The notes beneath the pieces were generated by a model, which saw only the letters and a list, made by a program, of their open reading frames with translations, was not told where the DNA came from and did no database searches. 27,177 bases of DNA. Origin: a virus. Shown piece after piece: positions 1 to 21,131 of the stretch. The number at the start of each line of letters is the position of its first letter. Positions within the stretch are counted from its first letter, which is position 1. The DNA is taken from positions 1 to 27,177 of IMG/VR virus record IMGVR_UViG_3300025626_000107; one strand, written 5' to 3'. A program made the translations under genes and the position numbers.

Positions 1-23
1 CCCCTCAAAGGGGTGCGTATAAT

Positions 24-413
24 ATGAAGAAATTAACTAGAAGTAAATTAATCAAAAAACTAGATAGTGTATTTAGCAAATACATCAGAAGAAAAGATGC
101 TATTGATGAGGTAGCAAAATGTGTTACTTGTGGTGTAGAAAGACATTGGAAAGAACTTCAATGTGGACACTTCCAAAGCAGAACACATTACTCTACTAGA
201 TGGGATGAGTTAAATGTAGGTGTTCAATGCATCAGTTGCAACATCTTTAAAAATGGGCAACAATACCTTTTCAGCAGATACCTAGATAAAACCTTTGGAG
301 AAGGCACATCAAACGAATTATTTCTAAAATCTCAAACATTAGGAAAATTTACCACAAATGAAATTGAAGAGATGATTAAAAAATATAAAAATTTGCTAGA
401 TCAGTTGGATTAG
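24..413 (+). CDS. ninG: NinG-like (lambda Rap/NinG family) recombination protein
   Basis: A 129-residue protein with the metal-binding pattern of the lambda NinG/Rap family: C33-x2-C36, then C47-G-H49-F, then C69-x2-C72-N, all embedded in the family's usual surroundings (SR after the GHF motif, R-W-D-x-x-N before the last Cys pair). NinG proteins act on branched recombination intermediates and help phage recombination. It sits upstream of an ERF annealing protein and an SSB-like protein, which fits a recombination module. The C-terminal 40 residues are a charged helix. The start at 24 is the first ATG and gives the complete N-terminal basic helix seen in the family. No Shine-Dalgarno sequence precedes it. 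Family call is by motif recognition only. Confidence 0.85.
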   Translation: MKKLTRSKLIKKLDSVFSKYIRRKDAIDEVAKCVTCGVERHWKELQCGHFQSRTHYSTRWDELNVGVQCISCNIFKNGQQYLFSRYLDKTFGEGTSNELFLKSQTLGKFTTNEIEEMIKKYKNLLDQLD

Positions 414-422
414 TTATCTTTG
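392..422 (+). promoter_or_regulatory. Host-type promoter for the small RNA
   Basis: TTTG at 392-395, a 19-base spacer, then TATCTTTG at 415-422. This matches the Bacteroidota housekeeping promoter (-33 TTTG, -7 TAnnTTTG) at every fixed position. The -33 element lies inside the end of the ninG gene. No good protein gene follows within the transcript, which ends at the terminator at 501-529. Confidence 0.75.
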
Positions 423-428
423 AAGGGT

Positions 429-529
429 AAATAAACTGTGGTGGTATATTTTATAGGTAGAGCAAGATCGAAAGATTCCCTGCCTAGTATCTGTTCGGAA
501 GGGGAAAATTAATTTTTTCCTCTTTTTTT
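429..529 (+). ncRNA. Probable structured small RNA of about 100 nt
   Basis: The 181-base gap between ninG and the gene at 595 holds a perfect host-type promoter (392-422) and a Rho-independent terminator (501-529), so a transcript of about 100 nt is expected; the 5' end is estimated from the promoter. Between them, TAGGTAG (454-460) pairs with CTGCCTA (480-486, one G-U), enclosing a small GATC-GAAA-GATT hairpin (466-477) with a GAAA tetraloop. The only reading frame, from GTG at 438, encodes 24 residues without any leader signal. It is not a tRNA: no acceptor pairing and no proper T-loop were found. I do not recognise the RNA family. It could be a regulatory RNA or an antisense or decoy RNA. 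Confidence 0.55.
501..529 (+). terminator. Rho-independent terminator of the small RNA
   Basis: GGGGAAAA (501-508) pairs with TTTTCCTC (515-522; 8 bp, one G-U) around a TTAATT loop, followed by seven T (523-529). It separates the small RNA from the promoter at 540-570. Confidence 0.8.
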
Positions 530-539
530 GTTTAAATAG

Positions 540-570
540 TTTGTTATTAAATAAAAGTTTTATATCTTTA
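540..570 (+). promoter_or_regulatory. Host-type promoter for the gene at 595
   Basis: TTTG (540-543), 19-base spacer, TATCTTTA (563-570), differing from the Bacteroidota consensus only in the last base. It is followed by an A-rich leader with CAAACAAAAACAAA directly before the ATG at 595, with no Shine-Dalgarno sequence. Confidence 0.75.
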
Positions 571-594
571 CATTATTAATCAAACAAAAACAAA

Positions 595-792
595 ATGGAA
601 AATTTAAAAGTAGGACAAAGAATAAGGTTTCAAATTGAAGGAACAAATGATGTATATACTAGAAAAATATATAGCATTTATATACCAAAATTTGGTAAAT
701 CAATTATTAAATACAATACAAAAGGAATAGATGGAGGTTATGCATCTGAAGGATTTTCAGTTGAACCACACGAAATAATTAAAGTATACTAA
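595..792 (+). CDS. Small unknown early protein
   Basis: A 65-residue protein, not recognised. It alternates short charged and aromatic beta-type segments (VGQRIRF near the start, several Tyr and Ile in the middle), suggesting a small beta-barrel or SH3-like fold, but this is only an impression. The gene forms a complete unit: host-type promoter at 540-570, an A-rich leader, the gene, then a terminator at 799-821. Such independently transcribed small genes in the early region of phages often act against host functions; that is inference from position only. The start is decided by the promoter and leader. Confidence 0.75.
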   Translation: MENLKVGQRIRFQIEGTNDVYTRKIYSIYIPKFGKSIIKYNTKGIDGGYASEGFSVEPHEIIKVY

Positions 793-798
793 TTCAAT

Positions 799-821
799 GG
801 GGGGTAAAACCCCCTTTTTTT
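799..821 (+). terminator. Rho-independent terminator
   Basis: A G run (799-804) pairs five G with CCCCC (810-814) around a TAAAA loop, followed by seven T (815-821). The next start codon (822) touches the T tract. Confidence 0.85.
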
Positions 822-998
822 ATGGAGCAAAAAAAACCAACACTATTGAACGTACTTTACGACAAACCAACAGAGGCAGGAAGAGATAGATTTTCCTTTG
901 CGTTTTCATCAGACATAAACGATTGGATTTGTTCAAGAAGAAGAAAATACGATAAAAAAGCATACATGATTAAAGCAGAAAAAAAGCGTTCAATTTAA
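822..998 (+). CDS. Small unknown basic protein
   Basis: An ATG directly after the terminator T tract opens a 58-codon frame ending in TAA at 996-998. The product begins MEQKKPTLLNVLYD and has a very basic second half (S-R-R-R-K-Y-D-K-K, then KAEKKRSI). I recognise no family. Supporting points: it fills an otherwise empty gap and has ordinary phage composition. Against: it lies immediately behind a terminator with no promoter or leader of its own, so it would depend on read-through. It could be a DNA-binding or adaptor peptide; nothing in the sequence settles this. Confidence 0.45.
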   Translation: MEQKKPTLLNVLYDKPTEAGRDRFSFAFSSDINDWICSRRRKYDKKAYMIKAEKKRSI

Positions 999-1015
999 TT
1001 TTAAAATAAAATGTT

Positions 1016-1023
1016 TATATTTG
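1016..1023 (+). promoter_or_regulatory. Possible host-type -7 box before 1036
   Basis: TATATTTG matches TAnnTTTG exactly and lies 12 bases upstream of the ATG at 1036. The -33 region about 19 bases upstream (around 993-996) reads ATTT, not TTTG, so only half of the promoter is convincing. It would start the ERF/SSB transcription unit. Confidence 0.45.
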
Positions 1024-1035
1024 TTCAAAAAAACG

Positions 1036-1188
1036 ATGGAACAAATCGTAAACATAGAAGATTTAAAGTATCAGCACAAGGTGCAGATTCAAGAATTTCA
1101 ACTAATTATTTACAAGTTGGAGAATAAGATTGAGATGCTACAAGCACTCCTTCAATCTAGGGAGAATCCCGAACAGGTTAAATTTTAA
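1036..1188 (+). CDS. Small coiled-coil protein
   Basis: A 50-residue frame beginning MEQIVNIEDL and ending in TAA at 1186-1188, nine bases before the ERF gene. From about residue 10 to 42 it is a continuous amphipathic helix with hydrophobics in heptad-like spacing (V, I, F, L, I, L, I, L), so a short coiled coil is likely. I recognise no family. Because it is the first gene behind the -7-like box at 1016 and is followed closely by the ERF and SSB-like genes, it may be an accessory of the recombination module; this is inference. Alternative: a chance frame, but the clean spacing argues against that. Confidence 0.55.
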   Translation: MEQIVNIEDLKYQHKVQIQEFQLIIYKLENKIEMLQALLQSRENPEQVKF

Positions 1189-1197
1189 AACAGAAAA

Positions 1198-1722
1198 ATG
1201 GATATATCACTAAACCACAAACTAGCACAGATTCAAACAGAACTAAAAGTTCACAAATCACAATTCAATAAGTATGGAAATTACTATTATAGAAGTGCAG
1301 AAGATTTTACAGAGGCTTTAAAACCTTTTTTATTACCTCATGATGTTACTGTTACTTTAAAAGAAAAGTATCTTGGTGATCATGTAATAAAATCAACGGC
1401 TATAATAAGTGATGGAGTGCAAAGAATTAAGGCTACTGCAATAGTACAGGTTGACATGGATTCAAAAGTAAATATGTCAATTCCTCAAAGATATGGAACT
1501 GCTAGTTCTTATGGTAAAAAATACGCATTAGGTAATCTTTTCTTAGTTGATGACACACAAGATGATGATGCAACAAATAAAAACAAAAAACCATTGATTA
1601 AAGGCACACTTTTATATAAGCAAGTGGTAGAGGCTTTGAAAGATGGATCAAGAACTTTAGATAAGATTAAAGAAACCTTAATAATATCTGAAGAATTAGA
1701 AGTAGAATTAAATAAATTATAA
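1198..1722 (+). CDS. erf: ERF-family single-strand annealing protein
   Basis: A 174-residue protein with the hallmarks of the ERF superfamily of phage annealing recombinases: an N-terminal helix ending in an FNKYGNYYYRSAEDF segment (about residues 23-37), and the signature Q-R-Y-G-T-A-S-S-Y-G-K-K-Y-A-L-G around 100-115, followed by LFLVDDTQDDD. ERF proteins bind ssDNA as rings and anneal complementary strands, as P22 Erf does. The C-terminal 45 residues form a Lys/Glu-rich extension that may contact partners. The SSB-like gene starts three bases after its stop, so the two are very likely co-translated. Start: first ATG, next to an A-rich stretch, no Shine-Dalgarno sequence. Confidence 0.9.
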   Translation: MDISLNHKLAQIQTELKVHKSQFNKYGNYYYRSAEDFTEALKPFLLPHDVTVTLKEKYLGDHVIKSTAIISDGVQRIKATAIVQVDMDSKVNMSIPQRYGTASSYGKKYALGNLFLVDDTQDDDATNKNKKPLIKGTLLYKQVVEALKDGSRTLDKIKETLIISEELEVELNKL

Positions 1723-1724
1723 AT

Positions 1725-2042
1725 ATGGGATCACTAGGAAGTTTAAATATAAGAGTAGACAAATTACCAAAAGAGAAGTTTGTCAAAGGAAAAGATGGAG
1801 CAGTTTATTGCGACATAACATTTTCCATAAATGATGATACTAGATATGGTAATAATGTGTCAGCAATGGTAAAACAAACAAAGGAAGAGCGAGATGCCAA
1901 GAAAGCAAAAGAGTACATTGGCAATGGCAAAATCTTTTGGACAGATGGAATTATTAAGTTAGCAGATAAGGATGAACTTGCTAAAAATTTAAATAGTTCT
2001 CCTTATGACAATAAAACCGAAGATAGCGGTTTACCATTTTAA
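1725..2042 (+). CDS. ssb: SSB-like single-stranded DNA-binding protein
   Basis: A 105-residue protein with beta-rich N-terminal sequence (LGSLNIRVDKL, then GAVYCDITFSIND) of an OB-fold type and an acidic C-terminal tip ending EDSGLPF. An acidic tail with terminal P-F is the signature of SSB proteins, which use it to recruit other replication and repair proteins. It follows the ERF gene by two bases; ERF/SSB pairs are common because the annealing protein works on SSB-coated DNA. The protein is shorter than bacterial SSB (about 170 residues), as phage versions often are. The terminator at 2048-2072 closes the unit. Confidence 0.75.
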   Translation: MGSLGSLNIRVDKLPKEKFVKGKDGAVYCDITFSINDDTRYGNNVSAMVKQTKEERDAKKAKEYIGNGKIFWTDGIIKLADKDELAKNLNSSPYDNKTEDSGLPF

Positions 2043-2047
2043 TATGA

Positions 2048-2072
2048 GGGGGATTAAGTTCCCCCTTTTTTT
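2048..2072 (+). terminator. Rho-independent terminator
   Basis: GGGGGA (2048-2053) pairs with TCCCCC (2060-2065) around a TTAAGT loop, followed by seven T (2066-2072). It ends the ERF/SSB unit, six bases after the SSB stop codon. Confidence 0.85.
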
Positions 2073-2088
2073 ATAAATTACACACCAC

Positions 2089-2898
2089 ATGACAAACGAA
2101 CAGTTGCAACTTATTGATAAGTTGTGTAAAATAGATACCACAGAAAAAGTAGAATATCCTCCATTAGCATTATCTTTTGGTGACAAGGTTATTCAAAGTA
2201 AAAAGGGAAATATAGTTGTTGAAATACCTCTTGGAACTTTAGGAAATTTTTCCTTTATCCAAGCACCTCCCAAAAGCAAAAAATCATTCTTTGTTAGTTT
2301 ACTAGTTTCAGCGTATTTAAGGAGTAACAACTTTGTAGGCAAAATTAAAAGCCACAGAAGAGATGAGAAGGTTTTACATTTCGATACAGAGCAAGGTAAA
2401 TATCACGCATCATTAGGATTTAGAAGAGTTACAGAGATGTGTGGTGTTACTGATGGTTACCATCCTTACTTTCTAAGAACATTAGGGTACGATCAAAGGA
2501 TTGAGTTTATAGAACATTGCCTAAAAAATTACAAAAATACAGGTTTAGTTGTTATTGATGGGATTGCTGATTTAGTTGCTGATGTAAACGACATAGAACA
2601 AAGTAATAATTGCGTTCAGAAACTAATGAAGTGGAGTAGTGATTACAATTGCCACATAATAACTGTGATTCATAGCAACTTTGGTACTGACAAACCCACA
2701 GGGCATTTGGGTTCTTTCTTGGAAAAAAAGACAGAAACACAAATTTCACTTGAGAAGAATACAGTACACGAAGATCAAGTAACAGTATCTTGTAAAAGGA
2801 GCAGAGGATTCCCTTTTGAGACATTCTCGTTTAAAATTAATAACTTTGGCTATCCCGAATTAGTAGATAGCATTTATGATCCCCTCAAAAACACTTGA
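2089..2898 (+). CDS. RecA-fold AAA ATPase/helicase-like protein with eroded Walker A
   Basis: A 269-residue protein with the plan of the phage RepA/AAA_25 group of hexameric ATPases: a linker, a P-loop region at 55-68, a Walker B strand TGLVVIDGIADL (about 151-162), and a sensor-like strand CHIITVIHSN (about 185-194). These proteins usually unwind or load onto DNA during phage replication. The odd point is the P-loop: A59-P-P-K-S-K-K65-S66 replaces both glycines of G-x4-G-K-S, while Lys and Ser remain. It may still bind nucleotide. The end overlaps the sigma factor gene by 23 bases, so the two are translationally coupled. A strict RecA-type recombinase is less likely given the length. Confidence 0.7.
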   Translation: MTNEQLQLIDKLCKIDTTEKVEYPPLALSFGDKVIQSKKGNIVVEIPLGTLGNFSFIQAPPKSKKSFFVSLLVSAYLRSNNFVGKIKSHRRDEKVLHFDTEQGKYHASLGFRRVTEMCGVTDGYHPYFLRTLGYDQRIEFIEHCLKNYKNTGLVVIDGIADLVADVNDIEQSNNCVQKLMKWSSDYNCHIITVIHSNFGTDKPTGHLGSFLEKKTETQISLEKNTVHEDQVTVSCKRSRGFPFETFSFKINNFGYPELVDSIYDPLKNT

Positions 2899-3355
2899 AA
2901 AAATATTTAAAAAGAACAATCAATGGATTGAAATTGTCCAATCGTTTGGTTGCAATCGTGACACATCACAAGACATTGTTCAAGAGATGTACATAAAGGT
3001 TCAGAAGCGTTTAGAGAAAGGCACAGATATCCAATATAGTGAAGATGACATAAACTATTACTACATTTTTAAAGTGCTTAGATCGCTTTTCTTGGACTTA
3101 AAAAGAAAGGAATCAAAAGTAGAAATTGTAGAGTTGGATGTTGTAGAGAATTGTGATGAAGATATTGACTATGAACAGGCTTATGGATTAGTGGTAGATG
3201 AGATCAATGAATTGTTTTGGTACGATAGAAAGATTTATGAGATTGTTGATGGGGGTATCAGTATTTCCGAGTTAAGCCGACAAACAAACATCAGTTACTA
3301 TTCGCTTTACAACACATACAAAAGAGTTAAAACCAAATTAAAACACTTGATATGA
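2876..3355 (+). CDS. Small sigma-70 family (ECF-like) RNA polymerase sigma factor
   Basis: A 159-residue protein with a two-domain ECF-type layout. Region 2 is residues about 15-85: the SQDIVQEMYIKVQKRL segment (core-binding region 2.1/2.2) and a conserved-type helix YYYIFKVLRSLFLDLKRKE with the aromatic and basic residues of regions 2.3/2.4. Residues 86-105 are an acidic linker. Region 4 is about 108-159, with a helix-turn-helix ISISELSRQTNISYYSLYNTYKRVKTKL that would read a -35 element. Sigma factors redirect RNA polymerase to chosen promoters. The start overlaps the ATPase gene and the end overlaps the next gene by four bases (ATGA). It is the best candidate to recognise the four CGTTATATA promoters of the virion genes; that link is inference. 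Confidence 0.8.
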   Translation: MIPSKTLEKIFKKNNQWIEIVQSFGCNRDTSQDIVQEMYIKVQKRLEKGTDIQYSEDDINYYYIFKVLRSLFLDLKRKESKVEIVELDVVENCDEDIDYEQAYGLVVDEINELFWYDRKIYEIVDGGISISELSRQTNISYYSLYNTYKRVKTKLKHLI

Positions 3356-3834
3356 TTAAGTTTCCAAAATCATTTTGGGCAATAGCAGAACAGATAGGAC
3401 AAGCAAGAAGTGTTGTTAATCAAAAGATATTAGAGAACAATCCAAGGTTCGACAGGGGAGAAAAAAACAATCATGTTGATACGATTGGAATATTGGGTGA
3501 GTTAATCGTAATGGATTATTTAACTCGTAAAGATCAAAAATTTGAAATGGCAAAACTTTTAGATTTCTATCCATCTAAAAATCCCGATTTTGTTATTCGC
3601 AAAAAAAGGATAGATGTAAAAGCAAGTAAGCATTCCCATTATAAAGATTTATTAGTTAATGAAGAGGCTCACAAAAAAGGAGTAGGAAAAATTGATATAT
3701 ATTGGTTTGTGGATATTCTTGATCAAGAAAGTTGTAATTTTTATTTTACTGACTACAATAATGTAAGTGGATGGAATTGCAAACTAATGAAATATACAAG
3801 GGCATATTATAGGAACATAAATGATTTAAAATGA
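3352..3834 (+). CDS. PD-(D/E)XK nuclease-like protein
   Basis: A 160-residue protein with the core of the restriction-endonuclease-like fold: an N-terminal helix with a conserved Glu (GILGELIVMDYL, about 46-57), then NPDFVIRKKRIDVKAS (about 78-93), which supplies the PD...D-V-K catalytic signature, followed by alternating strands and helices. Such nucleases cut DNA in recombination, packaging or host DNA degradation. The gene is tightly coupled: ATGA overlaps at both ends. It could be a resolvase-type or a host-directed endonuclease; the sequence does not tell which. Length is at the low end for a single-domain member. Confidence 0.65.
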   Translation: MIKFPKSFWAIAEQIGQARSVVNQKILENNPRFDRGEKNNHVDTIGILGELIVMDYLTRKDQKFEMAKLLDFYPSKNPDFVIRKKRIDVKASKHSHYKDLLVNEEAHKKGVGKIDIYWFVDILDQESCNFYFTDYNNVSGWNCKLMKYTRAYYRNINDLK

Positions 3835-3980
3835 AACTAGGAGATTTGATATATTACTTCACTAAGTACACAGGAATTAAAGCCTTGGTTGATTGGTATC
3901 ACAGATACACAGATACTGATTGCGGATGTGATGATAGAAGAAGAAAATTGAATGATTTTAAAGGAATTAAAAGATGGTAA
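3831..3980 (+). CDS. Small protein with CGC-x2-RRRKLN motif
   Basis: A 49-residue protein, ATG overlapping the previous TGA and stop at 3978-3980. It begins MKLGDLIYYFTKYTG and has TDCGCDDRRRKLNDF near the C-terminus. A CGC-x2-R-(R/K) tail is recurrent in short phage proteins of Bacteroidota hosts, as far as I recall, but I cannot name a function. The two cysteines could be redox-active or bind metal if the protein dimerises. It overlaps the next gene by seven bases, so it belongs to the same operon. Confidence 0.65.
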   Translation: MKLGDLIYYFTKYTGIKALVDWYHRYTDTDCGCDDRRRKLNDFKGIKRW

Positions 3981-4183
3981 AATTTAATAAAAAAGATTTA
4001 AAGATTTGGGATAAATACAGGGCAAGTAAAAAGTCAACCATTACAAGACAAGAATATGATGAAATTTGTGAATTACACGCTCATTATTTAGATCATCCTT
4101 TAGAAAAACCTTGTACTTGTTCACCCAAAAGAATAAAGCAGATGATTGAAGATTTACATAAAATTTGGGAAGATTCTCAATAA
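3974..4183 (+). CDS. Small unknown protein with CTCSPK motif
   Basis: A 69-residue, lysine-rich, mostly helical protein. It carries P-C-T-C-S-P-K at about residues 46-52 followed by an amphipathic helix (IKQMIEDLHKIWED). The motif pattern (Cys-x-Cys-Ser-Pro-Lys then a helix) resembles other short phage proteins but no function is known to me. The start ATG lies inside the end of the preceding gene, seven bases before its stop. It ends the run of overlapping genes that began with the ATPase; the next gene has its own promoter. Confidence 0.65.
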   Translation: MVKFNKKDLKIWDKYRASKKSTITRQEYDEICELHAHYLDHPLEKPCTCSPKRIKQMIEDLHKIWEDSQ

Positions 4184-4187
4184 CCTA

Positions 4188-4217
4188 TTGCATTATTAAA
4201 TTTTTTGTTTATATTTA
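4188..4217 (+). promoter_or_regulatory. Host-type promoter for the 4246 operon
   Basis: TTG (4188-4190), 19-base spacer, TATATTTA (4210-4217), one base off TAnnTTTG. It is followed by a leader containing TTAAACAAAACAGAACAG before the ATG at 4246, similar in character to the leaders at 595 and 9029. Confidence 0.65.
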
Positions 4218-4245
4218 CAATATTATTAAACAAAACAGAACAGAT

Positions 4246-4425
4246 ATGAATATAGGAAGTGATAAAGAATATGCCTTAAAAGGTTACACCATAGAATCCC
4301 TTTTAGAATTGGCTTATAGATTAGGAAGGAATAGTGCATCATCAGATATTGATGTTAAAGATATGCTGAAATGTGCTGAGAAGGTTCTTGAAAGAACTTC
4401 AGCCTACGAACTTATAGAGGCATGA
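4246..4425 (+). CDS. Small unknown helical protein
   Basis: A 59-residue protein beginning MNIGSDKEYALKGYT. The frame is open further upstream to an ATG at 4165, but that start would lie inside the previous gene and before the promoter at 4188-4217; the ATG at 4246 sits behind an A-rich leader and is preferred. The product is helical with an LLELAYRLGR segment and no recognised domain. It is first in an operon leading through a zinc-ribbon protein to the exonuclease. Its stop overlaps the next start (ATGA). Confidence 0.65.
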   Translation: MNIGSDKEYALKGYTIESLLELAYRLGRNSASSDIDVKDMLKCAEKVLERTSAYELIEA

Positions 4426-4643
4426 GCAACTCAAAACTATTAAGAGAACGAAAAAAAATATATAACCTATGGGTTATTGAATGTCCAACCTGTGGGAACT
4501 ATGCATCATCCTCGAATGATGTTAAAGAGTTACCCGATTGGATTGTTTGTAAAGAATGTTATCCCACTAAATTATTGAATGATGTCATACGAATGGATTA
4601 TAGAAAAAGATATTCAAGAATGGGACGTAAAACAAGCCTATAA
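4422..4643 (+). CDS. Small zinc-ribbon protein
   Basis: A 73-residue protein with two Cys pairs, C-P-T-C at about 21-24 and C-K-E-C at about 43-46, the spacing of a zinc ribbon. The C-terminus is very basic (RKRYSRMGRKTSL), as in nucleic-acid-binding ribbons. Such small ribbons are common in phage genomes as transcription or replication accessories, but no specific partner can be named. The start overlaps the previous stop by four bases. The last 65 bases overlap the next gene in another frame. Confidence 0.65.
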   Translation: MSNSKLLRERKKIYNLWVIECPTCGNYASSSNDVKELPDWIVCKECYPTKLLNDVIRMDYRKRYSRMGRKTSL

Positions 4644-4764
4644 TAAATACTTAAAAGCAAAAAAGTCAACAGGAGACTACATAGAATACAACAAGTGGTT
4701 TGACTATTGGCTAGATTATTTACAAATCAGACACAGATATGATACTACTAGTAGATGCCGATAG
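4579..4764 (+). CDS. Small unknown protein overlapping its neighbours
   Basis: A 61-residue frame (start 4579, or 4582 using the second ATG) rich in Tyr, Trp, Lys and Asp, with YNKWFDYWLDYLQIRHRY in the middle. It overlaps the zinc-ribbon gene by 65 bases and the exonuclease gene by 26 bases. It is supported because otherwise nearly 100 bases between those genes would be empty, which is not the style of this operon. The aromatic composition is unusual. No family recognised; a spurious frame cannot be excluded. Confidence 0.5.
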   Translation: MMSYEWIIEKDIQEWDVKQAYNKYLKAKKSTGDYIEYNKWFDYWLDYLQIRHRYDTTSRCR

Positions 4765-5440
4765 TTTAATTTTTGCGAGTTGTTACCGTCCAAAGGATGA
4801 TATTGACACATTCTATACAGATTTAGATGATGTCATTCATAAGTTTGATGAGGCATTCCAAAAGATAGTAAATGATCTTACTGATCTGTACAACGTAACA
4901 GAGGTGTTTACCTTTAATAACTCAAAGGGCAACTTTAGAAAGATGATTACTCCCAAATACAAAGCAAATAGAATAGGGCAACAGAAACCTCCACTACTAT
5001 CTGATATTCATAATTATGTTACTGAAACCTATGATGGTATTTATGGATACGGAGTAGAGACAGATGATATGGTTGCTACTTATTGGCAAACCCTATCAGA
5101 AAAGTTTGGTAGAGATCATGTAATGATTGTGAGTATTGACAAAGACTATCTTCAATTCCCCGCATTGATTTATAAGTACAATAGAAAAGAAGTTTTAGAT
5201 GTGTCTAAATTTGATGCGTTAAAAAACTTTTATACTCAAATGATAATTGGGGATTCAGCAGATAATGTGAACTACTTCAAAGGCAAAGGCATCAAGTTTG
5301 CACAGAAGTATTATAAGGACTGTGACACACAATATCAGTTCACTAAGATGTTATACCTTCTTTTTAAAGAACGATACAAGAGCAAAGCAAGGGAGAAGTA
5401 CATAGAGTGTTACAACCTTTTAAAACTAAGAACAGAATGA
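4739..5440 (+). CDS. 5'-3' exonuclease / flap endonuclease (T7 gp6 / T5 D15 type)
   Basis: A 233-residue FEN/PIN-type nuclease. Acidic metal-binding residues appear in the right order: D6 and D8 (LLVDADS), E107, D109 and D110 (GVETDDM), D134 and D136 (SIDKDYLQ), D172 and D175 in a helix-three-turn-helix region (GDSADNV, followed by GKGIK). K68-K75-K76-type basic residues at 60-80 lie in the arch region. These enzymes remove RNA primers and flaps or degrade 5' ends, and supply 3' tails for annealing proteins such as the ERF protein at 1198. It is coupled to its neighbours by overlaps at both ends. Full length for the phage type. Confidence 0.88.
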   Translation: MILLVDADSLIFASCYRPKDDIDTFYTDLDDVIHKFDEAFQKIVNDLTDLYNVTEVFTFNNSKGNFRKMITPKYKANRIGQQKPPLLSDIHNYVTETYDGIYGYGVETDDMVATYWQTLSEKFGRDHVMIVSIDKDYLQFPALIYKYNRKEVLDVSKFDALKNFYTQMIIGDSADNVNYFKGKGIKFAQKYYKDCDTQYQFTKMLYLLFKERYKSKAREKYIECYNLLKLRTE

Positions 5441-5610
5441 ATTTAAAAGAACAATTAAGCGAAAAGATAAAGACAAGAGATGAGAGAAGAAAAGCCATCC
5501 TTGATCCAAACATAGATCAAATAAGAATAGTTGGATTAACTAAAGGGTTAAGAATACTAGAAAAAGAAATAAATGGTTTAATTAAACAGATAGAAAATGG
5601 AGAAGGTTAA
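5437..5610 (+). CDS. Small coiled-coil protein
   Basis: A 57-residue highly charged helical protein beginning MNLKEQLSEKIKTRDERR. The frame is open to an upstream TTG at 5407, but the ATG at 5437 overlaps the exonuclease stop (ATGA), the usual arrangement in this operon, and is chosen. The sequence shows heptad-like Leu/Ile spacing in the second half. Function unknown. Confidence 0.6.
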   Translation: MNLKEQLSEKIKTRDERRKAILDPNIDQIRIVGLTKGLRILEKEINGLIKQIENGEG

Positions 5611-5707
5611 ACAAATAGCAAGTGCTTTATTTATACTAATGGCAAGTGCGTTAATTTTAATAATTGGAAATTTTATAGACTTACACAAACCACATGAAAA
5701 CCATTAA
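5597..5707 (+). CDS. Tiny single-pass membrane protein
   Basis: A 36-residue frame from ATG 5597 to TAA 5705-5707, overlapping both neighbours by 14 bases. After a short basic start (MEKVKQIAS) comes one hydrophobic segment of about 20 residues (ALFILMASALILIIGNF), then a short polar tail. This is a typical bitopic membrane peptide. Very small membrane proteins in phage early operons can serve in superinfection exclusion or lysis control; here the role is unknown. Confidence 0.55.
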   Translation: MEKVKQIASALFILMASALILIIGNFIDLHKPHENH

Positions 5708-6497
5708 TTCTTTAAGTGGAGGAAAAACAAGTAGTTACTTGTCAGTTCATTATCCTGCTAACTATAATATTTTTTCCTTGATTAGAATTGATGATGTAAA
5801 ATGTAAACCCAAAGATTCAAAATTAATTCAAATGGTTTCAGATAAATTAGATTTGGATTTTATTGCTACTGCTGAATCTGATAAAACATTAAAAGTTATG
5901 TTTGACTTAGAACAAGTATTAAGTAAAGAAATTACTTGGGTTTCGGGTAATAGTTTTGATGAGGTTATTTTAAAGAAAAAAGCACTACCAAATGAGTTAA
6001 TGAGATTCTGCACAACAGAAATGAAATTAAAGCCAATATTTGATTGGTGGCTAAAAAATATTAATGAGAAGGTGAAGATGGGAATTGGGTTTAGATACGA
6101 TGAAAAAGAACGTGCTGATAGATTTACCACATCATTTAAGACAATAGTAGGAAAAAGAAAAACTAGGAACAAATGGGAAGAAATTGAATGGAGAGAAGGA
6201 TATTTTCCTTTAATAGAAAACAAGATTACTCATTACCCTATTCATAAATGGGCAATGAAAAGTAATATTGATTTTCCCGAAGATTCGAATTGTGTTGGTT
6301 GTTTTCATAAACAAGTTCAGCAACTAAGAAAGAATTGGGATGATGAACCTTTGAAGATGCAATGGTTTTCAAATCAAGAAAAAAAACACACATGGAAAAA
6401 AGAAATGAATTTTAAACAAATAAAAAAGGTAGGTAAACAATTAGACTTCACTTATGGTGGAGGTAGTGGTTGCCAAGGAGGATTTTGTACAGATTAA
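5694..6497 (+). CDS. PAPS reductase / adenine-nucleotide alpha-hydrolase family protein
   Basis: A 267-residue protein of the PP-loop ATPase superfamily. The ATP-binding loop is S8-G-G-K11-T-S near the N-terminus. R105-F-C106-T-T-E-x-K-L-K-P follows the pattern of PAPS-reductase-like phage proteins, as does G132-F-R134-Y-D136-E-K-E-R140. C200-V-G-C203 plus C260 and C265 make a possible metal or Fe-S site. Members activate a substrate by adenylation; relatives include sulphate-assimilation reductases, DndC of DNA phosphorothioation, and enzymes for modified bases. Position in the replication operon suggests DNA or nucleotide modification rather than sulphate assimilation, but this is inference. 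No DndD/E-like partner is visible. Confidence 0.78.
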   Translation: MKTINSLSGGKTSSYLSVHYPANYNIFSLIRIDDVKCKPKDSKLIQMVSDKLDLDFIATAESDKTLKVMFDLEQVLSKEITWVSGNSFDEVILKKKALPNELMRFCTTEMKLKPIFDWWLKNINEKVKMGIGFRYDEKERADRFTTSFKTIVGKRKTRNKWEEIEWREGYFPLIENKITHYPIHKWAMKSNIDFPEDSNCVGCFHKQVQQLRKNWDDEPLKMQWFSNQEKKHTWKKEMNFKQIKKVGKQLDFTYGGGSGCQGGFCTD

Positions 6498-6498
6498 T

Positions 6499-6681
6499 AT
6501 GAAAGATAGTATATTAGAAAGCGTTTTAGACAAGTTTAAACAACGCTCAGAGGAAGGAATTAAGAAGTATGGTGTAACTATGGATAGAAAAGATTTAAAT
6601 GGCTTAGAATGGCTGACACATCTTCAAGAAGAATTGATGGATGCAACGTTATATATAGAGAAATTAAAAAAAGAATTGTGA
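6499..6681 (+). CDS. Short MazG-like/phage nucleotide-hydrolase-related protein
   Basis: A 60-residue protein. The frame opens at 6454 inside the previous gene, but the ATG at 6499, one base after the previous stop, is the likely start. It carries the pattern KYGVTMDRKDLNGLEWLTHLQEELMDA split between residues about 19-45, with an E-E-x-x-D-A helix like one half of MazG-type all-alpha pyrophosphohydrolases, and is a familiar short phage protein. Whether so short a protein is an active hydrolase is unclear; it may dimerise. Operon member. Confidence 0.6.
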   Translation: MKDSILESVLDKFKQRSEEGIKKYGVTMDRKDLNGLEWLTHLQEELMDATLYIEKLKKEL

Positions 6682-6788: not shown

Positions 6789-6951
6789 TCAAGCACAGAA
6801 ATTAATCAGCAGATACATCAGCGAATGTGGTGTTGATGAGGATTCCGCAAAAAAAGGAGTTTTGATTTTAGTAGATGAGATATTTAAATGGGGTTTACCT
6901 TATAGATATCAGATAGAATTTTGGACAGAAGTAAAACGATATTTAAAATGA
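6760..6951 (+). CDS. Small unknown protein
   Basis: A 63-residue helical protein beginning MTDREKNASDQAQKL, with a hydrophobic core segment GVLILVDEIFKWG in the middle and an aromatic-rich end. No family recognised. Its ATG lies within the end of the putative membrane peptide, and its stop overlaps the next start by four bases (ATGA), so it is translated as part of the operon leading to the DnaA-like protein. Confidence 0.62.
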   Translation: MTDREKNASDQAQKLISRYISECGVDEDSAKKGVLILVDEIFKWGLPYRYQIEFWTEVKRYLK

Positions 6952-7319
6952 CTGCACAGGAAATTAGTGATAGAATAATCAAGAAAACAGGAGTTAATGT
7001 TTTTGAAGATAGTAGGAAAAGGGAAGTTATTCACCATAGATCATTACTAATCTACTTGTTGAGGGAAAAAATGAATCTAAGATGGACAAATATTGCGTTA
7101 TTCTTTAAGGCAAATAAAAAGAACATAACACACGCAACTGTCATACATTCACATCATTATTACAAGGTGTACAAGGATGAAAATCCTAAACTTGAAGAGT
7201 TAGAAAAACAGTTTAACTTTACACCTGTCGATCTTGACACACTAGATAAAATACACATGCTAGAAAATAAGGTTAAAAATTTAAAAAAAGTAATTCAGAG
7301 ATATGAAAAAGTTGATTAA
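6948..7319 (+). CDS. DnaA C-terminal-domain-like DNA-binding protein
   Basis: A 123-residue protein starting at the ATG that overlaps the previous stop (the frame is open to a TTG at 6921, less likely). Residues about 25-75 resemble domain IV of DnaA: a helix R-K-R-E-V-I-x-x-R-S-L-L-I-Y-L-L-R-E, then W-T-N-I-A-L-F-F, and T-H-A-T-V-I-H-S-H at about 65-73, matching the DHTTV-type motif with which DnaA reads its box. There is no ATPase domain. A coiled-coil tail follows (about 100-120). It may bind specific DNA sites for replication start or packaging; the position just before the terminase genes allows either. Confidence 0.6.
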   Translation: MTAQEISDRIIKKTGVNVFEDSRKREVIHHRSLLIYLLREKMNLRWTNIALFFKANKKNITHATVIHSHHYYKVYKDENPKLEELEKQFNFTPVDLDTLDKIHMLENKVKNLKKVIQRYEKVD

Positions 7320-7473
7320 AAAAATAGGTAACTACATAATAGATTACTTCACAGAGACTGATCCCAACAAATTAGAGATTAGTATTCCTAAAAACTTCAA
7401 GACAAAGAAGGAGCAGAATTTCTTTATCAGAAGGACAAAGGATTTTATAATAGAAAATACCAACATTATATAA
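7303..7473 (+). CDS. Small unknown basic protein
   Basis: A 56-residue protein beginning MKKLIKKIGNYIIDYF and ending in TAA at 7471-7473. It overlaps the DnaA-like gene by 17 bases. It is rich in Lys, Ile and Phe, with basic clusters at the start and middle (KNFKTKKEQ, FIRRTKDF). No family recognised. It is the last gene before the terminase unit, after which 23 bases are non-coding. Confidence 0.6.
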   Translation: MKKLIKKIGNYIIDYFTETDPNKLEISIPKNFKTKKEQNFFIRRTKDFIIENTNII

Positions 7474-7496
7474 ATTGAATAAACAAAAATAAATCT

Positions 7497-7766
7497 ATGG
7501 ATGGCAGACAAAAAAACGGAGGAGCAAGAGAAGGAGCAGGGCGCCCTAAAAAGGCAGATGAAGAAAAGTTAATAGAAAAACTAGATGCATTAATTGATTC
7601 GGACAAGGTAGTAATGAAACTAGGTGAGATGTGTCTTAAAGGAGATTCAAGAGCATTGACATTATACTTCAATTACAGATACGGAAAGCCAAAAGAAAAG
7701 ATTGACATATCAGCAACAGAAGGTTTAAATGTCAACTTTAAGGATTTGATTCAATTTAGTGATTAA
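7497..7766 (+). CDS. terS: Terminase small subunit
   Basis: An 89-residue protein. The N-terminus has GGAREGAGRPKK at about residues 8-19, the glycine/basic segment that opens many phage small terminases and related DNA-binding proteins. A helix EKLIEKLDALIDSD and a second helical part with LTLYFNYRYGKPKEKID follow; YGKP is typical of the family. Small terminase recognises the packaging site and stimulates the large subunit. It overlaps the large-subunit gene by eight bases, which confirms the assignment. It is shorter than most (about 140-180 residues), so the oligomerisation part is minimal. The start follows an A-rich leader. Confidence 0.8.
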   Translation: MDGRQKNGGAREGAGRPKKADEEKLIEKLDALIDSDKVVMKLGEMCLKGDSRALTLYFNYRYGKPKEKIDISATEGLNVNFKDLIQFSD

Positions 7767-9648: not shown

Positions 9649-9672
9649 AACTTTTGTTTAGTTGGTTAATTG

Positions 9673-9701
9673 GGGTAGTCAGAAATGGCTGCCCTTTTTT
9701 T
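9673..9701 (+). terminator. Rho-independent terminator with GAAA tetraloop
   Basis: GGGTAGTCA (9673-9681) pairs fully with TGGCTGCCC (9686-9694; two G-U pairs) around a GAAA tetraloop, followed by seven T (9695-9701). It insulates the cassette at 9029-9648 from the virion operon. Confidence 0.9.
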
Positions 9702-9707
9702 GTGTTT

Positions 9708-9738
9708 AAAAATCACTTGGTTTTTGCGTTATATAATT
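9708..9738 (+). promoter_or_regulatory. Candidate phage late promoter 1 (CGTTATATA)
   Basis: CGTTATATA at 9727-9735 is followed by three bases and then the ATG at 9739. An A tract lies at 9708-9712. The same motif with identical distance to the start codon occurs at 16632, 18702 and 21120. It starts the virion operon directly behind a terminator. Confidence 0.62.
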
Positions 9739-10395
9739 ATGAAAGCAACAGTAACTGTACCAAACCTGTCAGAGATTACTTTAGAACAGTATCAAAGATT
9801 CTTGAAAGTTCAGCAGATAAACAAGGATGATGAGTATATCATTAAGTTGAAGATGATTGAAATATTCTGCAACGTAGATTTTAAGGATGCAAGGAATATC
9901 AAGTTCACAGATGTTGAGAGGATCATTGAGAAGTTAACAGAATCCTTTCATCAAAAACCCAATCTTATCAAAACATTCAAAATGGATGGGGTTGAATATG
10001 GGTTTATTCCTTCGATGGAAGAAATGACTTTTGGAGAATACATTGATGTTGACACATACCTTCCACAAGATGATCAAATGCACCTTGCAATGAATGTGTT
10101 GTACCGTCCTATTACAAGTAAGAAAGCAGGCAAGTATTCTATTGAAGATTATGACATAAACACAAAGGAGAGGATGAAACAAATGCCTTTGAAGGTTATG
10201 TTGTCAGCCACTTTTTTTTTGCAAAATTTAGGCTTGGAGTTACTGAACGTTACGAGCAATTATTTACAGGGGGAAATGGAGAAACAACAACTCTCTCCGC
10301 AGGATTTGGAAAAAAGTGGGGATGGTATTCAAGCATCTATGCACTCGCTCAAGGAGATATTGAAAGATTTGAAGGTATCACTTCCCTTGAATTAG
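9739..10395 (+). CDS. Tail assembly chaperone, short (unshifted) product
   Basis: A 218-residue protein starting at the ATG behind the CGTTATATA motif; the earlier ATG at 9685 lies inside the terminator and is rejected. The N-terminal 160 residues are the common domain (MKATVTVPNLSEITLEQYQ..., KMDGVEYGFIPSMEEMTFGEYIDVD). After residue 160 this frame continues with a helix and ends SLPLN. A second frame, reached by a -1 slip at nine T, carries another conserved-looking end. Production of a short and a frameshifted long form is the mark of gpG/gpGT-type tail assembly chaperones, which coat the tape measure while the tube polymerises. The tape measure is 4.3 kb downstream, further than usual. 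Confidence 0.7.
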   Translation: MKATVTVPNLSEITLEQYQRFLKVQQINKDDEYIIKLKMIEIFCNVDFKDARNIKFTDVERIIEKLTESFHQKPNLIKTFKMDGVEYGFIPSMEEMTFGEYIDVDTYLPQDDQMHLAMNVLYRPITSKKAGKYSIEDYDINTKERMKQMPLKVMLSATFFLQNLGLELLNVTSNYLQGEMEKQQLSPQDLEKSGDGIQASMHSLKEILKDLKVSLPLN

Positions 10396-16607: not shown

Positions 16608-16643
16608 AAAACAAAAAACAAGAAAATTAACCGTTATATAAAT
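16608..16643 (+). promoter_or_regulatory. Candidate phage late promoter 2 (CGTTATATA)
   Basis: CGTTATATA at 16632-16640, three bases, then ATG 16644. An A tract is at 16613-16618. The 36-base gap is unusual in a block where most genes overlap, and the motif fills its end. It starts the protease-scaffold unit. Confidence 0.65.
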
Positions 16644-17564
16644 ATGAAAATTGTAGAATTAGTTTTGGATGACAATGAAGAGAGTGGTATTGAAGCCATC
16701 TCTATTGTTGAATCACCTGCTATTGAATCAGATTTTGTAGCCTTAAAATCAGATGAAGTAAAACTAGCAGAAGTTGACACAGAGAAAAAAATATTGATGG
16801 GTGCTTTGTTAATTCCAAACAAACCCATTTACAGAAAAACAGAAGGTGAAGAATATTATATTTATTTCTCAAAGGATACAGTTTTAAAAGCATCTCAAAG
16901 ATACCTAACAAATGGATATCAAGGTAATTCTACATTAGAACATTCTGACAACTTACAAGGATTGACATTAGTTGAAAGTTGGATAGTTGAAGATGATAAG
17001 TATGACAAATCAAGAAAGTATGACATGAATGTTCCAATAGGGACTTGGATGGGTACTGTAAAAGTAAACAATGAAGAGGTTTGGAATGATTATGTTAAAA
17101 CAGGAAAAGTAAAAGGATTTAGTATAGAAGGCTTTTTTGCCGATAAAATTAAAGCATCAAAGGTAGAAAAAATACAAACACTTGAAGAAATAGAAGAAGA
17201 AGAGGCTGCTGAAATGCTTTCTATGATTAAGGGTATTGTGAAAGATGGTAAGGTTGAAATGGAATCTTATTCAGATTATCCCGATTCAGTAAAAAACAAT
17301 GCTCAAAGAGGTATTGATTTAAATAAAGAAGTTAAGAACAAATGTGCAACGGATGTAGGCAAAATAAGAGCGCAACAACTAGCACAAGGTAAACCTATAT
17401 CAGTAAGTACAATAAAAAGGATGTACTCTTATTTAAGTAGGGCAGAAGAATACTATAATGAAAAAGACAAGGAAGCGTGTGGTACAATCTCATATCTTTT
17501 ATGGGGAGGTAAATCTGCAAAAACTTGGGCATTGAGTAAACTAAAACAATTAAAAATCAAATAA
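16644..17564 (+). CDS. XkdF-like prohead serine protease with extra C-terminal domain
   Basis: A 306-residue protein. Residues about 1-175 are an XkdF-type (peptidase S78-like) domain: LTLVESWIVEDDKYD, then MNVPIGTWMGTVKVNNEEVW, with candidate catalytic H100 (LEHSDN) and S160 (GFSIEGFF). The enzyme trims scaffold and capsid during head maturation. Residues about 207-306 are a second module: YSDYPDSVKNNAQRGI, C234, IKRMYSYLSRAEEYY, C279-G-T-I-S-Y-L-L-W-G-G. I associate this block with Bacteroidota phage head genes but know no function. The start is fixed by the CGTTATATA motif at -12. Next gene follows by one base. Confidence 0.82.
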   Translation: MKIVELVLDDNEESGIEAISIVESPAIESDFVALKSDEVKLAEVDTEKKILMGALLIPNKPIYRKTEGEEYYIYFSKDTVLKASQRYLTNGYQGNSTLEHSDNLQGLTLVESWIVEDDKYDKSRKYDMNVPIGTWMGTVKVNNEEVWNDYVKTGKVKGFSIEGFFADKIKASKVEKIQTLEEIEEEEAAEMLSMIKGIVKDGKVEMESYSDYPDSVKNNAQRGIDLNKEVKNKCATDVGKIRAQQLAQGKPISVSTIKRMYSYLSRAEEYYNEKDKEACGTISYLLWGGKSAKTWALSKLKQLKIK

Positions 17565-18677: not shown

Positions 18678-18713
18678 AAATGCAAAATAAATTTTAACAA
18701 TCGTTATATAATT
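18678..18713 (+). promoter_or_regulatory. Candidate phage late promoter 3 (CGTTATATA)
   Basis: CGTTATATA at 18702-18710, three bases, then ATG 18714. An A tract lies at 18684-18687, preceded by C, the same distance upstream as at 21102-21105. It would drive the scaffold and major capsid genes. Confidence 0.65.
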
Positions 18714-19305: not shown

Positions 19306-20211
19306 ATGGCAGTAAACATAACAAGCACATATGCAGGAACTTTCGCAGGTTCTTACATCTCGGCGGCTTTGCTTTCGGGAAATACGATTGCAAATGGTGG
19401 AATCGAAGTGAAACCAAATATCAAATACAAAGAAGTTATCAAGAAGGTAGCAACTAGTGGTTTGGTAGTAGATGCAACTTGTGATTTCACAAGTGCAGGA
19501 TCAGTTACATTAACTGAGAGAATTATTCAACCCGAATATTTCCAAGTAAATCAAGAAATGTGTCTCACACCTTTCCAATCTGATTGGGAGGCTGCTCAAA
19601 TGGGATACTCTGCTTTTGATCAATTACCTCCTAAGTTTTCTGATTTTATTATCGGGCAATTTGCGTCTGAGGTAGCGGCTAAGACAGAATCTAACATTTG
19701 GAGTGGTGCAAATGCTACAACAGGTGAGTTTGATGGTTTTGTAACACTTATGACTGCTGACGCTGATGTTATTGATGTAGCAGCAGGTGCAGTTGTTGTT
19801 GGTAACGTAGTTACTGAAATGCAGAAAATAGTTGATGCTATTCCTGCTACTTTATTTGGTAAGGAAGATTTACATATTTATGTATCACAAAACATTGCAA
19901 AGGCTTATGTTGGTGCAATGGGAGCATTAGGAAGTGGTATTGACAACAGAGGAGCGTTGTGGTATCAGAATGGTGCACCTTTATCATTTGGTGGTATTCC
20001 ATTATTTGTAGCAAATGGATTAGGAGATAATCAAGCAGTTGCTGCTGAGAAATCTAATCTCTTTTTTGGAACTTCTTTACTTTCAGATCAAAATGAAGTT
20101 AAGTTGTTAGATATGAGAGATTTGGATGGCTCACAAAATGTGAGGTTGGTGATGCGATTTGCAGCAGCCGTACAGTACGGAATTGGTTCTGACATCGTTC
20201 TATACTCTTAA
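19306..20211 (+). CDS. Major capsid protein (HK97-like)
   Basis: A 301-residue protein, ordinary size for a compact HK97-fold capsid protein. It follows the scaffold gene and begins MAVNITSTYAGTFAG. Segments such as LTERIIQPEYFQVNQEMCLTPFQSDWEAAQMG (about 70-101, in parts) and ALGSGIDNRGALWYQNG near 205-221 match the style of Bacteroidota phage capsids. The end NVRLVMRFAAAVQYGIGSDIVLYS fits the last strand of the fold. The gene is closed by a strong terminator at 20234-20268, which lets a short scaffold-capsid transcript accumulate to high level. No separate cleavage site was assigned. Confidence 0.88.
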   Translation: MAVNITSTYAGTFAGSYISAALLSGNTIANGGIEVKPNIKYKEVIKKVATSGLVVDATCDFTSAGSVTLTERIIQPEYFQVNQEMCLTPFQSDWEAAQMGYSAFDQLPPKFSDFIIGQFASEVAAKTESNIWSGANATTGEFDGFVTLMTADADVIDVAAGAVVVGNVVTEMQKIVDAIPATLFGKEDLHIYVSQNIAKAYVGAMGALGSGIDNRGALWYQNGAPLSFGGIPLFVANGLGDNQAVAAEKSNLFFGTSLLSDQNEVKLLDMRDLDGSQNVRLVMRFAAAVQYGIGSDIVLYS

Positions 20212-21098: not shown

Positions 21099-21101
21099 AA
21101 C

Positions 21102-21131
21102 AAAACCCTAATTTTTTTGCGTTATATAGGT
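21102..21131 (+). promoter_or_regulatory. Candidate phage late promoter 4 (CGTTATATA)
   Basis: CGTTATATA at 21120-21128, three bases (GGT), then ATG 21132. An A tract is at 21102-21105. It would drive the gene at 21132, portal, connector and tail fibre. Confidence 0.65.

Follow-up and report, generated by a model that had tools for sequence, protein, structure and literature searches.

A small ECF-like sigma factor in a phage group, probably of marine Bacteroidota, and its putative late promoters locked to the start codon

The window analysed here is the whole of a 27,177-nucleotide virus record from IMG/VR (IMGVR_UViG_3300025626_000107). It carries a gene for a small ECF-like protein, P0001, and our main conclusion, which on the sequence and structure-model evidence we hold with a probability of about 0.88, is that this protein is a sigma factor made early that redirects the host core RNA polymerase to the late genes via promoters composed of CAAAA and CGTTATATA. 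The conclusion is built on the family signature of the protein, on a bipartite promoter element with fixed spacing and on the coevolution of the sigma factor with the -10 element, all of which can be read from the sequences. The gene and its two predicted domains are located as follows.

2876..3355, + strand: phage sigma factor gene (P0001), an intact ATG open reading frame of 159 aa
2876..3130, + strand: sigma region 2 (residues 1-85), from the model compared with SigR and other ECF region 2 structures
3164..3352, + strand: sigma region 4, a helix-turn-helix (HTH) (residues 97-159), which superposes on sigmaE region 4

Taken alone, P0001 matched the NCBIfam models sigma70-ECF (5.5e-6; 26.1 bits at a curated cut-off of 42.9) and SigZ (5.2e-6) and the Pfam model Sigma70_r2 (0.016), all below the curated cut-offs, and a PDB profile search was by itself weak (SigE, E 0.02). 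A scan of IMG/VR with P0001 revealed homologues at 80 loci, 28 of which were aligned (alignment A1). NCBIfam ECF models matched 20-23 of these 28 (best E values 3.2e-13 and 5.9e-12), the PHROG sigma family phrog_1740 matched 20 and Sigma70_r2 matched 16 (best 2.9e-5). Residues D33, E37, M38 and Y39, which lie within a region-2.2-like DIVQEMY stretch, are invariant in the alignment. It should be mentioned that tblastn of P0001 against isolated phages gave a chance-level match only, and that 84,980 genomes of bacteria and archaea, when scanned, yielded a single short MAG contig, so that no prophage or host could be assigned by that route.

The AlphaFold2 model of P0001 (pLDDT 85, pTM 0.46) was compared with known structures. 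In the PDB search ECF sigma factors ranked top (best E 1.8e-4); residues 1-77 superposed on region 2 of SigR (Z 9.0, 2.6 A, 72 aa) and residues 97-159 on region 4 of E. coli sigmaE with -35 DNA (Z 8.9, 1.6 A, 63 aa). Over the full length the TM-scores were low (about 0.4), as the model leaves uncertain how the two domains are placed relative to each other; the single domains alone superpose well. Phage proteins whose annotation names an ECF or sigma-70-family sigma factor were numerous among the best viral structure matches. As in ECF-type sigma70 factors, regions 2 and 4 are present and regions 1.1 and 3 are absent. Judged by profiles and model, P0001 is a small ECF-like sigma factor composed of region 2 and region 4, with no further domain. 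A 159-residue protein with these two regions was what the sequence-only reading had described, and the profile and structure searches it had proposed returned a sigma factor and not another HTH protein. Region 2 would be expected to bind the core polymerase and to melt and read the -10 element, and the HTH of region 4 to read the -35 element CAAAA.

The sigma gene overlaps the 3' end of an AAA-ATPase gene (2089-2898) and is surrounded by genes of early type, encoding a NinG-like nuclease, an Erf-like annealing protein, the AAA ATPase and a 5'-3' exonuclease. The whole run lies on the + strand, ahead of the terminase genes. For the gene that follows the sigma gene (3352-3834), neither Pfam nor PHROG gave a match. 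No anti-sigma factor was recognised as a neighbour of the sigma gene, and no phage RNA polymerase gene among the genes examined. The following elements precede the sigma gene.

392..422, + strand: host-type early promoter, TTTG-N19-TATCTTTG, a perfect match to the Bacteroidota sigmaA type
497-533, 799-822 and 2046-2072: three intrinsic terminators, downstream of the early promoter and upstream of the sigma gene

The early promoter (TTTG...TAnnTTTG) is kept in the related records G001-G006, and G007 retains its -7 box; in flavobacteria, TAnnTTTG is the -7 box of sigmaA promoters (PMC9723704). The earlier proposal that the early genes use a host-type promoter holds for this one conserved element and not for such matches in general, which are not over-represented in the window (3 against 2.6 expected); likewise, a generic sigma70 promoter scan of the window gave 80 matches against a shuffle expectation of 93. 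No late-type promoter was found between the three early terminators, which suggests read-through or antitermination that could time the synthesis of the sigma factor. The terminators before 822 and 2089 are kept in most of G001-G006, and G024 and G029 have the one before 2089 as well. A conserved leader (ctgtggtggtatatttt ... tatctgtt, 430-500), possibly a short RNA, lies downstream of the early promoter and ahead of the first terminator; an Rfam search of the window, this leader included, found nothing.

The word CGTTATATA occurs in the window five times on the + strand and not at all on the - strand, with 0.15 copies expected. Four of the five copies are preceded by a -35 element (CAAAA or AAAA) and followed by an ATG 3 nt downstream.

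9672..9702, + strand: intrinsic terminator, directly 5' of late promoter 1
9709..9735, + strand: late promoter 1 (AAAA 9709-9712, CGTTATATA 9727-9735, ATG 9739)
16614..16640, + strand: late promoter 2 (AAAA 16614-16617, CGTTATATA 16632-16640, ATG 16644)
18683..18710, + strand: late promoter 3 (CAAAA 18683-18687, CGTTATATA 18702-18710, ATG 18714)
21101..21128, + strand: late promoter 4 (CAAAA 21101-21105, CGTTATATA 21120-21128, ATG 21132)
6647..6655, + strand: in-gene CGTTATATA, inside the ORF 6454-6681, no -35 element
7464..7472, + strand: CATTATATA, a degenerate site ahead of the gene for the small terminase (7497), doubtful in the window

The resulting consensus is CAAAA-N14-CGTTATATA, and counting 12 nt on from the C of CGTTATATA leads to the A of the start codon; promoter and start codon are thus held in a fixed register. 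The -35 element is an addition to the motif originally reported. We collected 49 distinct CGTTATATA sites from whole related records; they share descent and cannot be counted as 49 independent events. At positions -18, -17, -16 and -15 from the C, an A is found in 38, 48, 46 and 44 of them, respectively. An A-rich -35 element and a CGT-type -10 element at fixed spacing are thus present across the 49 sites, as in ECF promoters, and by its sequence CGTTATATA is one half of a bipartite ECF-type promoter. The classical ECF -35 element is AAC, whereas here it is CAAAA.

All four bipartite sites are located at or beyond 9727 and none in 1-6600; the ATG at 16644 belongs to an XkdF-like protease gene. 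The gene starts behind the window promoters are supported by homology, which in most diverged phages extends from the very first residue. Of the five copies originally taken as promoters, these four stand. The copy at 6647 was rejected as a late promoter: it reads as codons T-L-Y-I, has neither a -35 element nor an ATG at the usual distance and is kept together with its gene only in G001 and G003, and it is probably an incidental coding coincidence. The site at 7464 was likewise rejected as a strong promoter, having one mismatch and a weak -35 element and not being kept in G001-G003; G004-G006 carry CGTTATATA at this place. A palindrome-like stretch, TTGATTAATCAA or TTGAATAAACAA, follows the small-terminase promoter just past the expected start (7464-7497 in the window; G004-G007 and G021-G028) and is a possible operator.

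To see how the motif and the sigma gene are distributed, whole related records were searched with profiles. The sigma gene was found in 35 of 36 records, the exception, G021, being a fragment that lacks the early region; all CGTTATATA-type records long enough to judge carry it. Co-directional sets of 3-6 CGTTATATA copies are present in G001, G003-G008, G021, G023 and G025-G028, and the fragment G002 has one copy; a few stray copies on the opposite strand or inside genes also occur among the related records. In the remaining records CGTTATATA is absent or scattered, and the -10 element at orthologous genes reads CGATATA (G009, G022), CGTTTATA (G017/G019, G030/G032/G036), CATTATA (G020, G033/G034), GGTTATTT (G010, G011, G013, G014), CGTTAAA (G012) or TGTACATATA (G031); for several diverged clades it was read by eye from orthologous starts. 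A plain count of words before ATGs was swamped by A-rich words and was replaced by a Markov-corrected test of words before gene starts. CGTTATA-type words were the most enriched in four CGTTATATA clades, and the top word was CGATATAT in G009 and CGTTAAT in phage P12024L. The by-eye motif was not recovered in several A+T-rich clades, and in G008 CGTTATA was not the top word, though three exact copies are present.

We then asked whether the -10 element follows the sigma factor or the terminase. Each comparison paired promoters that belong to different genes and to different records, so that the shared descent of a single upstream region was not counted. Cross-gene promoter similarity correlated with sigma distance (Spearman -0.65) and continued to do so given terminase distance (partial -0.63, permutation p 0.0005, the smallest value obtainable from 2000 permutations), in genomes that are related and whose hosts, and hence host sigma factors, may covary with the phage sigma. 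Controlling for the product of the gene at 19306, a probable capsid protein, gave -0.62. Terminase distance given sigma showed a partial correlation of -0.05 (p 0.35). Individual records agree: G008 has a terminase 31% identical and a sigma factor 51% identical and carries exact CGTTATATA, while G030-G036, with terminases 69-71% identical and sigma factors 25-31% identical, have other motifs. Thus, in the sequences compared, the -10 element changes in step with the sigma factor and not with the terminase. Among close clades, K41 with S, T, N or W at position 70 goes with CGTT, L41/G70 with CGAT and Q41/G70 with CATTATA, and in the alignment S70 of P0001 stands opposite the N in the 'NLFLD' stretch of ECF SigE; as two to four independent lineages underlie this pattern, we regard it as a lead only. 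The co-occurrence of sigma gene and motif, together with this clade-wise matching divergence of sigma factor and -10 element, supports at the sequence level the original suggestion that the sigma factor reads the CGTTATATA promoters.

The closest isolates by terminase (59%) are the Nonlabens phages P12024L and P12024S. Their genes P12024L_35 and P12024S_33, directly before the terminase genes, are annotated only as 'containing Sigma-70 region 2', and no promoters or function were described for them in the literature searched. The A1 profile matches the P12024L sigma at 6e-14 in a small six-frame set; P12024L is reached by this profile only, its sigma being 23% identical to P0001. In P12024L we found six AAACAAA...CGTTAAT sites, each at an ATG annotated by the depositors, with an offset of 12 in five and 11 in one; the A of these ATGs is at positions 294, 2675, 19353, 22034, 23274 and 24875. 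These isolates thus share with the window phage the gene family, the promoter architecture and an ATG at the same offset. Riemerella phage RAP44, a temperate relative whose terminase is 46% identical, had no sigma match and no promoter site in the part of its record that was covered, all but about 8 kb. A two-class switch run by one small sigma factor had been considered unusual for phages of Bacteroidota; this was not borne out, since it looks standard in the group and is also seen in P12024L and P12024S.

Core binding, direct recognition of the promoters, timing and start site are the steps that we infer. Host sigmaA would drive the early operon and with it the synthesis of the phage sigma factor, which would then bind the host core RNA polymerase and redirect it to the late genes that begin at 9739, 16644, 18714 and 21132. 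The first transcribed nucleotide would be the A of the start codon or lie no more than 1-2 nt from it, and the late mRNAs would have no leader or almost none. In phages 7-11 and phiEco32 transcription starts 6-9 bp from the promoter element (PMC8948821). With CGTTA as the core, this rule places the start at positions 11-14, a range that includes the start-codon A at position 13. Fifteen sites have no ATG at that place; in 14 of them position 13 is a purine, and in 11 position 12 is a T. Both the sites and the analogy support the predicted late starts at the A of the ATG. We slightly favour the broader view that a leaderless late class exists family-wide, P12024L and P12024S included, and that the sigma switch also switches the mode of translation initiation. 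Only 5.5% of mRNAs in F. psychrophilum are leaderless (PMC9723704).

The fixed distance to the ATG could also mean that CGTTATATA-NNT-ATG is a translation-initiation or mRNA element and no promoter, and in the CGTTATATA clades 50 out of 54 orthologous sites have the 12-nt offset to the A of the ATG, which fits that reading. We consider it very improbable, since CAAAA lies further upstream at fixed spacing across a spacer of variable sequence, the small-terminase copies stand well upstream of their ATG with the purine at position 13 retained, the copy at 9727 directly follows an intrinsic terminator, and the motif covaries with the sigma factor. Hardly more credible is that P0001 is a non-sigma HTH regulator, an activator or small-terminase-like protein resembling a sigma factor: for P0001 alone some weak matches to HTH models (HTH_26, HTH_psq) equal Sigma70_r2 in score, and some homologues match YlxM/UPF0122, but the ECF matches across the family reach 3e-13, both halves of the model superpose on sigma regions 2 and 4, and the invariant residues fall in the region-2.2-like motif.

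Somewhat less improbable, though still unlikely, is that the phage sigma factor serves something else. Promoters with a conserved CGT -10 box in F. psychrophilum SM6 have been attributed to host ECF sigma factors (PMC9723704), which lends this possibility some weight. Against it, the variation of the -10 element among phage clades follows the phage sigma factor, the sigma gene is nearly universal in the group, and RAP44, temperate and without the sigma gene, is also without the sites. The reading we prefer remains that of a phage sigma factor directing the polymerase to the late genes.

By analogy, the closest known system is gp47 of Salmonella phage 7-11 (SaPh711_gp47), a small phage sigma factor with a C-terminal region 4 and late promoters of the form GTAAtg-16-aCTA (PMC8948821). 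Both phages appear to have a small sigma factor with C-terminal region 4, bipartite promoters upstream of late and not early genes, and two classes only, the early one using host sigma70 in 7-11 and the late one the phage sigma (PMC8948821); they differ in host phylum, sequence family and -35 and -10 elements. Like the window sigma, gp36 of phiEco32 is a phage sigma factor, serving middle and late genes with the host core polymerase; unlike it, gp36 uses single-element promoters (tAATGTAtA), has no region 4 homology and works with gp79 (PMC8948821). The commonest family-level profile match was the Bacteroidota ECF family GFO_1088/PG0214 of NCBIfam (23 of 28, best 5.9e-12), and ECF promoters of F. 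psychrophilum SM6 share the CGT-type -10 box (PMC9723704). In contrast to Bacteroidota host ECF sigma factors, P0001 scores below the curated cut-off and appears to serve phage late genes. Thus, it can be proposed from sequence and analogy that these proteins form a new family of phage-encoded sigma factors for late genes and act in the manner of 7-11 gp47. What is new is the family itself, the probable host group (Bacteroidota), the coevolving sigma-promoter pairs and a geometry that predicts leaderless messages, the start-codon-locked promoter and the series of coevolved pairs being the most unusual features.

These data outline a transcription programme for a large phage group, probably of marine Bacteroidota. 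The naturally diverged sigma-promoter pairs at orthologous genes offer ready material for studying how region 2 recognises the -10 element, and the sigma genes, combined with their promoters, might be used as orthogonal parts for gene expression in Bacteroidota. The predicted leaderless late messages are testable in the cultured phage P12024L and, if real, would occur in hosts where leaderless mRNAs are normally rare.

Two further genes of the window deserve mention. The product of 6921-7319, just before the terminase genes, has a DnaA domain IV-like HTH (Bac_DnaA_C 2.5e-6, below cut-off). The product of 5694-6497 resembles phosphoadenosine-phosphosulfate reductase (phrog_424, 6.7e-18), and its gene is possibly an auxiliary or DNA-modification gene.
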